From assembly GCA_020859985.1 (NCBI GenBank), contig JAJBVD010000042.1, forward strand, positions 1 to 64,000: a stretch of DNA of 64,000 bases, written 5' to 3'. Positions 46,731 to 54,251 of this stretch are shown in pieces. The first letter of the stretch is position 1. Each line of letters begins with the position of its first letter. Below the pieces are notes generated by a model. It had not been told where the DNA came from, did no database searches, and was given only the letters and a program-made list of their open reading frames with translations. The translations under genes were made by a program, and so were the position numbers. The stretch is from Clostridiales bacterium. Its GTDB lineage: Bacteria > Bacillota > Clostridia > Lachnospirales > Lachnospiraceae.

Positions 46731-46843
46731 GTAGCCCCGCCCCGCGCGCAGCGCATCTGCATGGGCGGGGCAACCTGCCGCCGAGCCTGGCGAGGGGCGC
46801 TTCCCGTAATCCCGCCCCGCGCGCAGCGTATCAAAATGGGCTT
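46731..46843. repeat. Interspersed palindromic element, copy A plus truncated copy B
   Basis: GCCCCGCCCCGCGCGCAGCGCATCTGCATGGGCGGGGC...TGCCGCCGAGCCTGGCGAGGGGCGCTTCCC followed by a second half copy. Confidence 0.8.
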
Positions 46844-47599
46844 TTATCTGCGCACTTCTATTTTTCGCAGCCCCCTCAGGCTCACCGCTCCGGCAGCCGC
46901 ATAAAGGGCAAGACCGATCACCGGCATCAGGGGAGAATGCATCCATTTCAGAACGTTCTGGTTAAAAATCGATGTCTCACCCTCCAGCCCCACCATCAGG
47001 CCGCAGAAAAAGGCAAAGCCTCCGGCAAACACGGCATTGAAAATCATTCCGAGAGTTCTGTTTCGTATGGATACCATGCCAAAAAAGATTCCGATCAGAG
47101 CCGCAAAGGTCTCAGCGGCAAAGATCAGCGGCAGCCATTCCATCCAAACTGTTCCCATCCCAAACACGGAAAAAAGCCCGGCGATTCCAAACACAACCAG
47201 TATCACCGCACTCTCGCAGAGCCACATGCTCAAAGCAGTCAGCCGTCTCGTGGCGTTCATGGAAATCATCGTCGTAATGATATTGTTAAAAAGGACTGTC
47301 GGGCAGATCCATACGGTTACGCCGCCCGCAAGCAGCAGGTAAGGCGAAAAATCTTCCAGCAGCGCTGCGGCCATCTTCCATGACAGCGGCCAGCCACCGC
47401 CCGTTTCTCCTCTCACAATCGGCACGAACAGATCCCAGATTACCGCGACGAGCAGAGCGCATCCAACCATCTGCAGGCAGAGTCCGCCAAAATAGCAGAC
47501 TATGCGCAGTGTGCGGGACGCTCCCACTATTTCTTTTTTTGTCGTATTCTTCCCTCTACCGTTTTGTGCCGCCGCCCCAAAATGATTCTCTGCATTCAT
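46844..47599 (-). CDS. ABC-2-type permease-like membrane protein
   Basis: Multi-TM protein between permease and ATPase genes in a YtrABC-like order. Confidence 0.7.
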   Translation of the reverse strand: MNAENHFGAAAQNGRGKNTTKKEIVGASRTLRIVCYFGGLCLQMVGCALLVAVIWDLFVPIVRGETGGGWPLSWKMAAALLEDFSPYLLLAGGVTVWICPTVLFNNIITTMISMNATRRLTALSMWLCESAVILVVFGIAGLFSVFGMGTVWMEWLPLIFAAETFAALIGIFFGMVSIRNRTLGMIFNAVFAGGFAFFCGLMVGLEGETSIFNQNVLKWMHSPLMPVIGLALYAAAGAVSLRGLRKIEVRR

Positions 47600-47641
47600 T
47601 TGCTTTCTCCCTCGCCTGCATACTAAAATTTTTTCTTTTAG

Positions 47642-50938: not shown

Positions 50939-50965
50939 ATCGGAAAGGGGGAGCTCTCTTCTCCC

Positions 50966-53107
50966 CTACAGCATCCGATATCTGGCCAGACATGCCAGGA
51001 TTTCCTGCCGTCTCACGGACGCGGCAGCGCCCGCCCCGTAATTTTTCGGAGTGACAGACAGGATTCCGTCTTTCTCGATTTTCCTCGCCGCTTCCTCCGC
51101 CAGAGCGGCGGCGGTCTTTTTGCCGTCTGCCATACGGCCCAGAATATACTGCATCAGATAAGCCAGCGCAGCCGTCTGGCTTTCGTCAACGACCTGTTCC
51201 AGATAACGCAGGTCAATCTCTGTCTTGTCCAGACTTAAAGTATCCCATCCGTGGGTGCGTGCCTTTTCAATCTGTTTTGCGCGAACCGGCTTTTTCAGCC
51301 AGGCGGTACGTTGCGCTGCTGCTTCCCGGCTCTTCACTCCCATTTCAGGCAGATTTTTCGTCGAATTCTCCTGCCGCTTCACGTTCGCTGTCCCCGGCAT
51401 GGTTTCTTTGTCCGGCTGCCCGCTGACATCCTGTGCCATTCCATCACGCACGCCCTCATATTGCTGCCCACAGATCTCCTTTGCGCGTGCCGTGACATCT
51501 TTTGCCACATAGCAGTCCATCTGCAGCACGGTGTCCGCCACCGTCAGATAATCGCCGGAGCTGCCTACGACCAGAATCGTCGATACGCCAAGGTCTTCAT
51601 ACAGACTGCGAATGCTGCGGATGAACGGTTTGATCGGTTCCTTTTCATCGGAGACAAGCTGCGCCATGCGCTCATCACGCACCATAAAATTGGTCGCCGA
51701 AGTATCCTCATCGATCAAAAGCAAACGGCTGTCCGCAGCCAGTGCCTCGACCGTATTTGCCGCCTGAGACGTGCTGCCGCTTGCGTTTTCCGTAGAAAAA
51801 CGGGTCGTGTCTGCTCTGGTGGGCAGGTTACTGATAAACATGGAGATATCCGTCTCATGAATGCAGCGCCCTTCTTCTGCACGCAGCTTAAATGCGCTCT
51901 GATCCGTGATGACCAACTCCCTGCCGTCCCCGGCAATATGGTTGTAAACACCGCGTTCCAGCGCTTTCAAAAGAGTCGATTTTCCGTGAAATCCGCCGCC
52001 CGCGATCACCGTGACACCCTTTTTAATCCCCATACCGCGCACGCTTCCGCGATGCGGCAATTCCAGCGTCACAGCCAAAGATTCCGGACTTTCGAATTTT
52101 ACTGCAGCCCCGCCCTGCCCTCGCCGGGTTATGCCCCCAATCTCTGATTGTGGGGCGTGGGCATCCTCGCCCTCCGGGCGGGATATCCGCCGAGCCTGGC
52201 GAGGGGGCGTTTCCAAACTTTTCATCGGCCGCTGTGACACGCCGCTCTCCCGCGGCAGTACCGAACCGTCCGCTACAAAAGCTACAAGCCCCAGACCGTC
52301 CAGTGCGTCCCGTATGTACTGCTGATCGTCCGCCAGCTCTACGACCGCGTCAAGCTCCCGCTTCATCTGCGGATTGAAATGAAACGTTTTCTCCGCAGCT
52401 TCCGGCAGGAAATCAAACAGAATCTTCTCCAGCTCCCCTGCCGCAATCGTGCGTCCGAACGCCGGAAATCCGACCTCGATCCGCGCCTCTATTTCATTCA
52501 CGGAAATGCACATCGCAGTGCGCTCCAGAACTTCCTGCCCGGCGCGGCAGGCCGTGACGAGACCGCTTTTACCTGAGCCCCGCCCTGCGCGGCCACTATT
52601 TCCATTATAATCCCGCGCCTGCTCGTCTCTTCTGCCCCTGTCCTCTCTGTTTTCACGATTTCCTCTGTAGCCCTGACCGGATTCTGTTCTTCCACCCTGT
52701 CGCCCAAATCGTGCCGGGAAGGCTTTCACATCCTGCCGAAATGCCGGACGTGACGTCGATTCCGCACGCAGATTCCGGTGCAACCGCCGCAGCAAATAAT
52801 CCTCCACGGCGATCCGGCGGTGGCGGCTCTCAAAATACTGCGGCGCGATATTACCCCAGCCCTGCCCCGCGCGCAGCGCATTTAAATGGGCAGGGCGTTC
52901 TGCCGCCGAGCCTGACGAGGGGGCGCTTCCATGATTGTGATAAATGATCCGCACCCGCGATGGCGTCGCAAACGGATCGCCCTGTACATGGTCAATCGCG
53001 AGGCGGTAGGCGCCGAAGTCATATTCGCCCTCCAGCACCTTGTATGCCTTATATCCTTTGTGGTCTATTTCTCTTAACTGTTTTTTAAGCTCCGCCTGTG
53101 AACGCAT
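50966..53107 (-). CDS. ABC-ATPase domain protein (predicted ATPase of the ABC class) with insertions
   Basis: GGGFHGKSTLLKALERGVYNHIAGDGRE P-loop; LLIDEDTSATNFMVRDERMAQLV; family-typical N-term YDFGAYRLAIDHVQGDPFATPSRVRI. Confidence 0.85.
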   Translation of the reverse strand: MRSQAELKKQLREIDHKGYKAYKVLEGEYDFGAYRLAIDHVQGDPFATPSRVRIIYHNHGSAPSSGSAAERPAHLNALRAGQGWGNIAPQYFESRHRRIAVEDYLLRRLHRNLRAESTSRPAFRQDVKAFPARFGRQGGRTESGQGYRGNRENREDRGRRDEQARDYNGNSGRAGRGSGKSGLVTACRAGQEVLERTAMCISVNEIEARIEVGFPAFGRTIAAGELEKILFDFLPEAAEKTFHFNPQMKRELDAVVELADDQQYIRDALDGLGLVAFVADGSVLPRESGVSQRPMKSLETPPRQARRISRPEGEDAHAPQSEIGGITRRGQGGAAVKFESPESLAVTLELPHRGSVRGMGIKKGVTVIAGGGFHGKSTLLKALERGVYNHIAGDGRELVITDQSAFKLRAEEGRCIHETDISMFISNLPTRADTTRFSTENASGSTSQAANTVEALAADSRLLLIDEDTSATNFMVRDERMAQLVSDEKEPIKPFIRSIRSLYEDLGVSTILVVGSSGDYLTVADTVLQMDCYVAKDVTARAKEICGQQYEGVRDGMAQDVSGQPDKETMPGTANVKRQENSTKNLPEMGVKSREAAAQRTAWLKKPVRAKQIEKARTHGWDTLSLDKTEIDLRYLEQVVDESQTAALAYLMQYILGRMADGKKTAAALAEEAARKIEKDGILSVTPKNYGAGAAASVRRQEILACLARYRML
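52103..52216. repeat. Divergent palindromic-element copy (E) inside ABC-ATPase gene
   Basis: gcagccccgccctgccc...gggcgggatatCCGCCGAGCCTGGCGAGGGGGCGtttcc shares the right half with copies A and C. Confidence 0.65.
52851..52935. repeat. Palindromic element copy C inside ABC-ATPase gene
   Basis: GCCCTGCCCCGCGCGCAGCGCATTTAAATGGGCAGGGC...TGCCGCCGAGCCTGACGAGGGGGCGCTTCC. Confidence 0.85.
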
Positions 53108-54251
53108 CATTTTTCCCACCTGCTTCGAATCTCATCCAGCATCTCCATCACGCGGATCGTATGCGCATGCGGCATCTCCTCGCACTCTAGCTTTCCCGCC
53201 TCGATCGCACGTTTGCAGGCAAGCACTTCATATTCGTAGCCTGTGATCTGCTTTGGCTGCGGTATCGTCTCCACCAGCTCATACTCATTGTTGTAAATGC
53301 GGATTTCTTCAAAATTGTTGGTGTTTTCCACCTCTATACGGCCTTCCGTCCCAAAAATGATCCCGCGGCGGTCTGAGACTGCTTCCATCGTGTTGAACAG
53401 TCCTGCGATCGTTCCATTCGGATATACGAGATTGACAAACTCGGACTTGTCCACACCCGTCTTGTGAAGCACCATCGAAGTCGAAAGACCCTGAATGTCG
53501 TCGCCCAGCACCCAGGTCGCAAAATTCAGCGTATAAACGCCAAGGTCGAGCAGCGCCCCGCCGGCCAGGTCCGGACGTACCATACGTTCTTTATCCAAAA
53601 GAGAATAGCCCAGATTCGCGGTCAGACCAACGATCTTGCCGATGCGGCCGCCGCCCGGACGGTTTTCTCCGGCCACAACGTTTTTGTTTTTCCCGCAGCT
53701 GCCTGCAGTAACATCACCTGCCAATGTTGGTTCCCAGCAGCCCTGGCCCACGCGAAGCGTTTCTAAATGGCCAGGGCAATCTGCCGCCGACCCAAGGGAG
53801 GGGGCGCTTCCCGTGAAAGCATCTTCTCCAAACAGCAGCTCCCTTACCTTCCTTGACTGCGGGGTATAGCGTGTCCACATCGCTTCGGTAATAAAGACCT
53901 TTTTCTCATGCGCCAGCTCCAGCACTTCCCGCGCTTCCGCCGCGTTCTGCGTGAAGGCTTTTTCACACAGCACCGGTTTCCCGTGATTGATGCACAGCTT
54001 CGCGTGCTCGCAGTGATGCGAATGCGGCGTTGCGATATAGACCAGCTCCACCTGATCATCGCACAACATTTCCTCATAGCTTCCATAGGACTTATCCGCA
54101 CCGTATTTTTCGGCAAACGCCTTTGCCCGCTCACCATCGCGGGCCGCGATCGCGTACAGATTCACCTCAGTCATCCGTGATACCATACCGTTTCCGCCAT
54201 CGTTGTCGCGATTCTGCCTGCTCCTAAAATTGCAAGATTCAGTTTCTTCAT
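53107..54251 (-). pseudogene. Gfo/Idh/MocA family oxidoreductase with N-terminal frameshift and in-frame repeat insertion
   Basis: N-term MKKLNLAILGAGRIATTMAETV reads from 54251 and hits TGA; the rest continues in another frame (MTEVNLYAIAARDGERAKAFAEKYG...). A duplicated GGTAT explains the shift. Confidence 0.8.
53731..53816. repeat. Palindromic element copy D inside oxidoreductase gene
   Basis: GCCCTGGCCCACGCGAAGCGTTTCTAAATGGCCAGGGC...TGCCGCCGACCCAAGGGAGGGGGCGCTTCCC. Confidence 0.85.

Follow-up and report, generated by a model that had tools for sequence, protein, structure and literature searches.

Why does a short palindrome stay paired when the sequence of its stem does not stay the same? 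This question is raised by a 64,000-nucleotide stretch of contig JAJBVD010000042.1, from a Clostridiales bacterium of the Lachnospiraceae (the whole stretch is called the window below), where copies of an interspersed palindrome differ by paired substitutions in the stem. A preliminary description of this DNA, made from the sequence, took the pattern for covariation. It offered two kinds of explanation: a structured RNA, or a mobile repeat similar to repetitive extragenic palindromes (REPs) and bacterial interspersed mosaic elements (BIMEs), mobilised by a RAYT transposase. We find that the repeat is mobile. The reading that we favour, with a probability of about 0.68, is that it is a non-autonomous mobile DNA palindrome of two hairpins, and that it is kept as DNA.

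The stems of three full copies, A, C and D, are present in the sequence exactly as first described. In copy A GCCCCGCCC (46734-46742) pairs with GGGCGGGGC (46763-46771), in copy C GCCCTGCCC (52859-52867) pairs with GGGCAGGGC (52888-52896), and in copy D GCCCTGGCC (53740-53748) pairs with GGCCAGGGC (53769-53777). By covariance-model score the repeat belongs to the Rfam family GA-cis (RF02987), which has a gathering threshold of 34.7 bits; copies C and D reach this and copy A is 0.4 bits short of it. The genome (3.8 Mb, 89 contigs) holds 36 copies at or above the threshold and about 45 that are recognisable. The element consists of two hairpins, measures about 75-78 bases net and has the terminus ...GGGGGCG(C/T)TTCC. 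The stems of hairpin 1 are perfect palindromes, with a sequence that is highly varied between copies. Throughout this work the assemblies are drafts, mostly metagenome-derived. The relevant features of the window are as follows.

46728-46811, plus strand: copy A, a full element with one G missing in hairpin 2 (R1, 67.9 bits; RF02987, 34.3 bits)
46734-46771, plus strand: hairpin 1 of copy A, outer stem 46734-46742 / 46763-46771 (from sequence and covariation)
46807-46843, plus strand: truncated tandem copy behind copy A (recognised part 46814-46841), identical in stem sequence, stopping in the 3′ arm
49237-49294, plus strand: degenerate copy 5′ of a GntR-type regulator gene, also found in relatives
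52100-52221, plus strand: deleted element with a palindromic insert nested in hairpin 2 (recognised part 52161-52221), in frame in the ABC-ATPase-like gene
52573-52600, plus strand: fragment (5′ arm and inner hairpin) in the ABC-ATPase-like gene; genome G009 has a full copy near the site
52853-52937, plus strand: copy C, a full element, in frame in the ABC-ATPase-like gene (RF02987, 36.0 bits)
53734-53818, plus strand: copy D, a full element, in frame in the oxidoreductase gene (RF02987, 48.1 bits)
50966-53119, minus strand: ABC-ATPase-like host gene, holding copy C, the deleted copy and the fragment
53107-54186, minus strand: Gfo/Idh/MocA-type oxidoreductase host gene, holding copy D

Copy A is probably intergenic, between an ORF (open reading frame) ending at 46844 and the next starting near 46706, both on the minus strand. 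The four smaller copies had been called truncated or degenerate. All are there, and 'truncated' is apt in general, except for 52100-52221, which is an internal deletion plus a nested palindromic insert. A further weak, degenerate candidate (27378-27455, minus strand, 25 bits) lies outside the interval that was first described.

Taken alone, the window has two compensated stem positions, and these would prove little. We therefore used a larger set of 154 distinct copies, 41 from the genome itself (gathered by Rfam search and by regions) and 113 from about 15 other species of the genus. Covariation was compared with a tree-based null in the manner of R-scape, where the Fitch-counted substitutions of each column are re-placed at random on the tree; the resulting E-values are bounded at 1/60 and 1/100. 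The 41 copies, aligned with MAFFT, are the cleaner test, as the 113 were aligned by fitting to the model. In the former, seven pairs are significant against the substitution-matched null and all belong to the structure (six in the outer stem, one in the inner stem). In the latter, eight structure pairs are significant, each above all 100 null alignments, together with a single off-structure pair that re-registers the apex of hairpin 2. Multiple stem positions occupy all four Watson-Crick pairs. The paired substitutions thus exceed the phylogenetic background in the larger set too, which bears out selection, or correction, acting on a folded nucleic acid. The loop and the second hairpin, on the other hand, do not simply stay similar as had been proposed. 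What looked like a loop is a small stem that itself covaries (columns 29-39 in the 41-copy set; 20-43 and 21-42 in the 113-copy set), the apex of hairpin 2 covaries too, and only the base of hairpin 2 is near invariant.

Is the folded molecule DNA or RNA? In a conserved RNA helix G·U mismatches are expected to be far commoner than A·C. We counted both in hairpin 1 across the 154 copies, using the variable pairs of the signal recognition particle (SRP) RNA of the same genus as a control. The ratio of G·U to A·C is 12:11 in the element and 84:5 in the SRP RNA (Fisher test, p = 6e-6). Split by orientation the element gives 9:8 and 3:3, i.e. there is no dependence on orientation. Because the stem mismatches show no preference for G·U, the palindrome seems to be kept at the DNA level, apparently not as an RNA helix, and we infer that single-stranded DNA is the form that is recognised. 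Elements that occupy the same site in two species show that stem change goes on after insertion. By reading, 25 such pairs hold about six compensated and about four one-sided stem changes, none of the one-sided ones being G·U; the raw script count is 12 compensated and four one-sided, where the 12 includes one misregistered pair.

These observations also bear on a purely mutational explanation, in which template switching during replication copies one arm of the palindrome onto the other and no structural selection takes place. Such a process would account for the near absence of intermediates, for G·U and A·C being about equal and for the perfect palindromes, and truncated tandem copies do carry the stem of their neighbour. 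Against this, one-sided changes do exist at same-site pairs, and covariation extends to the inner stem and the hairpin-2 apex, which selection would give too. We regard this explanation as rather unlikely when taken as the whole account.

The mobility of the element, which had been supposed from the outset, is borne out by alignments with other genomes of the genus. The element inserts, because close relatives carry clean empty sites. DNA alignments reveal such sites for copies C and D and the 52100 composite; conversely, G010 and G013 carry copies where this genome is empty. The ABC-ATPase-like protein has orthologues in 45 of the 47 genomes of the genus. At the site of copy C the window protein reads IIYHNHGSAPSSGSAAERPAHLNALRAGQGWGNIAPQ and relatives that are up to 96-98% identical read IIYHNRGNIAPQ; the 25 extra residues are missing from orthologues, and the site is empty in G009, G010 and G013. 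Copy D sits between two Pfam domains of its host protein, with a copy at the same site in G009. For the composite at 52100-52221 the site is empty in G013 and related insertions are present in G009 and G010. The net insert is 75 bases at two well-resolved sites, TTCC closes the 3′ end in most copies and the 5′ flank weakly resembles TTC(C). We also considered whether the target site serves as template for the 5′ arm, an idea that was rejected as empty sites are mostly without the arm. Spread by phages or plasmids was rejected too, since neither collection gave a match to the element, and the low-scoring pattern matches in viral contigs that we inspected are ordinary sequence, with no elements.

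A palindromic insert of about 39 bases occurs at the same point of hairpin 2 in several copies (L042, L043, L035, L081:11187-11310, L082:9759-9882 and the window copy at 52100-52221), and in the window copy this nested insert is likewise in frame.

Where does the element land? Of the 41 copies, 36 fall within an ORF that continues for 25 codons or more to either side. Copy A is included in this count, although it is probably intergenic, since its ORF runs 5′ of the probable start. For positions drawn at random from the same loci the coverage is no different (86%), therefore genes are not avoided. The host ORFs are real genes by their domains, with Pfam families matched by 29 of the 30 tested. 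Their products include MutS, MutL and PriA, along with a Mur ligase, a response regulator and a protein similar to MiaB; a polyprenyl synthetase is another host. In about 16 hosts the insert falls within or between Pfam matches (positions were read by eye), e.g. in the linker of MutL, between domains I and II of MutS, in the helicase core of PriA and at the receiver/output junction of the response regulator. Copies use both orientations and several frames. In most cases the length of the insert is divisible by three and its reading in the host frame has no stop codon, so the host protein gains about 25-26 residues; ETPPRSASAADRASDAENASRF is an example of the encoded peptide, as predicted from host ORFs. 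An AlphaFold model of the ABC-ATPase-like host protein was too poor for use, with a mean pLDDT (predicted local distance difference test) score of 45.

If the element moves, something must move it. The preliminary description had pointed to a RAYT, and we searched for enzymes with the profiles PF01797 (Y1_Tnp) and NF047646 (RAYT). The genome itself has two Y1 enzymes, both IS200 TnpA. An element derived from IS200/IS605 (PATE) would share its ends with a resident one, and the 2-3 kb loci around the two IS200 copies hold no match to the element (the ends of the insertion sequences are unmapped there). With the Y1_Tnp profile nothing was detected in the draft assemblies of G007, G009, G014, G016 and G020, which have 20-47 copies each, and the enzyme is present in several genomes with zero copies. 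NF047646 found no RAYT above its cut-off in nine genomes. No element adjoins the true RAYTs of G012 and G029. The GTAG tag is absent next to the element, where A at -1 is conserved and positions -2 and -3 are variable.

A weakly similar, RAYT-like protein is encoded by a single-copy core gene in 45 of the 47 genomes, independent of the presence of the element. In the genome that holds the window, no other RAYT-like gene is shared across the genus. In G000 it lies on contig C55 (L306:1818-2366, minus strand). Its HUH motif and Tyr segment have been lost; in the HUH region it reads MDNAAYFVI, and true RAYTs (G012, G029) read MTNHFHLLL or MDNHVHLLI. We rejected the G000 protein as the missing enzyme, given the loss of HUH and a presence unrelated to that of the element. 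From its sequence, this RAYT-derived protein is a candidate domesticated transposase. Just 3′ of its gene there are weak, degenerate element-like matches in G020 (16.4 bits each) and fainter ones in G017. These may be a trace of a past association; they are a hint, no more.

It could be argued that the element is REP/BIME-like after all, moved in trans by a RAYT or an IS200-type Y1 transposase that is now lost or too divergent to detect. The two hairpins, the tolerance of the stem to sequence change and the single-strand logic match HUH enzymes, and the RAYT-derived gene is nearly ubiquitous in the genus. However, this is hard to reconcile with the nine genomes lacking a RAYT hit, the five copy-rich genomes without a detected Y1_Tnp, the loss of the catalytic segments from the shared protein and the absence of elements beside IS200 or the true RAYTs. 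Two hallmarks, the GTAG tag and an extragenic site, are missing, and mobilisation by a RAYT is unsupported. We consider this explanation unlikely.

The distribution of the element reveals two habits. The element occurs in 23 of the 47 genomes of the genus. Among further sampled genomes it is present in 20 of 298 from the rest of the family and in none of about 280 from other families of the class. Species of the genus differ in copy number, from none to over 50, and the genus as a whole is estimated to hold 500 copies or more. At 19 loci from other genera the element is oriented as the downstream gene; the neighbours of most of these copies are two co-directional genes, and AGGAGG mostly occurs both at the 5′ stem and ahead of the gene. 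The element is thus found by ribosome-binding sites in other genera and inside genes in this one. The sense copies adjacent to Shine-Dalgarno sequences suit the name 'cis'. A structured, probably cis-regulatory RNA with covariation that reflects RNA folding would agree with these copies and with the Rfam entry, which lists the family as RNA, but this is improbable given a variable stem without G·U preference, copies within unrelated genes in both orientations in this genus and the swings in copy number among species of one genus.

A few observations were made in passing. Tandem GA-cis arrays with units of about 78-90 bases occur at L087, L091, L098, L099, L116 and L199; they are intergenic in other genera and within an ORF in G011. 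Near positions 1714-1760 of L099 the downstream gene seems to draw its Shine-Dalgarno sequence and ATG from a truncated copy, so here the element may have supplied a translation start. At L109 and L110 (G038, G042) about 500 bp lie in opposite orientation between flanks that are 98% identical. This segment, possibly an invertible one, includes a composite repeat of about 240 bp with a GA-cis copy, which was considered as a candidate autonomous parent of the element. The window holds two further repeats. One (48679-48814), interspersed and about 135 bases long, recurs many times in G009, G010 and G013; it has only a weak 12-bit match to the GA-cis element and otherwise no relation was seen. The other (49377-49525) consists of four direct repeats with 33-base spacing, rich in TTTTCGGGA, directly 5′ of the gene at 49550-50938.

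How might a mobile DNA palindrome behave in this way? We propose that the mobilising machinery recognises a folded, single-stranded DNA hairpin, in which case the sequence of the stem could drift freely while pairing is kept. Hairpin-templated correction of one arm from the other would help to keep that pairing. Selection would purge any insert that causes a frameshift or introduces a stop, leaving tolerated, linker-like peptides. A wider proposal, which we make tentatively and think somewhat more likely to need revision than to stand, is that the whole GA-cis family is a mobile single-stranded-DNA hairpin, free in stem sequence and fixed in pairing. In one clade of Lachnospiraceae it would have given up its preference for ribosome-binding sites and come to insert anywhere, even inside essential genes, where the element is translated as a harmless linker, and the machinery that moves it would be one that is still undescribed.

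Several points weigh against a mobile DNA palindrome kept as DNA. Searches with the Y1 and RAYT profiles found no mobilising enzyme, and transposition is unseen. The G·U test consists of 23 mismatched cells and one control RNA. Elements at the same site are 94.1% identical and their flanks 87.2%, and a divergence this low may come from selection for some function or from conversion among the copies. Target sequences (TTCC, TTAC, TTCT) are weakly defined; the copy-specific similarity of flanks is short, with z = 4.4 at one offset of 20, and no target-site duplication is clearly proved. Finally, a role in RNA or translation would likewise give the constant position beside Shine-Dalgarno sequences in other genera.

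The results suggest that a family entered in Rfam on the strength of covariation may consist of mobile DNA. If the wider proposal is true, covariation alone would have misfiled a DNA element as an RNA. Counting G·U against A·C mismatches for each orientation separately is a simple test that could be used on other candidate RNAs. The element shows a route by which host proteins such as MutS, MutL and PriA can gain about 25 residues in their linkers or loops. It also adds a second lineage, of gut bacteria near cultured relatives, in which a palindromic repeat has colonised coding genes in frame on a scale comparable to that in Rickettsia.

How does the element compare with known systems? It is of the same family as the GA-cis RNA by covariance model. 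Rfam treats that family as RNA, whereas here we see mobile DNA inside genes that lacks the G·U tolerance of an RNA helix. Prokaryotic miniature inverted-repeat transposable elements are likewise small, non-autonomous and present in many copies, and they too can form in-frame fusions (PMC10969869). Unlike these, our element has no terminal inverted repeats that we found to be shared with a transposon (no genome-wide search for such repeats was made) and no clearly proven target-site duplication, which in an element of this kind derived from a DDE transposon would have a fixed length. REPs, BIMEs and REPINs (doublets of REPs), which depend on a RAYT, share the short hairpins, the variable complementary stems and the conserved flanking bases. 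Some REPs do lie within genes, many of which serve repair and replication, and G·T pairing is reported to be frequent in GTAG REPs (PMC3733652). The element differs in having no GTAG tag, no active RAYT that we could find, no G·U bias and a mostly intragenic location.

The Rickettsia palindromic elements come closest in behaviour. They are palindromic, interspersed, found in frame in unrelated genes and translated into an extra peptide, and no dedicated transposase is known for them (PMC10969869, PMC3733652). They are about 150 bp long (PMC10969869, PMC3733652), with CGTC at one end (PMC3733652). Our element belongs to another phylum, ends in TTCC instead of CGTC, has two hairpins and is about half as long, and by the tests possible, which compare features, the two are unrelated. 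What they share is insertion in frame in unrelated coding genes with empty orthologous sites, and by this analogy the GA-cis element of these gut bacteria would work like the palindromic elements of Rickettsia.

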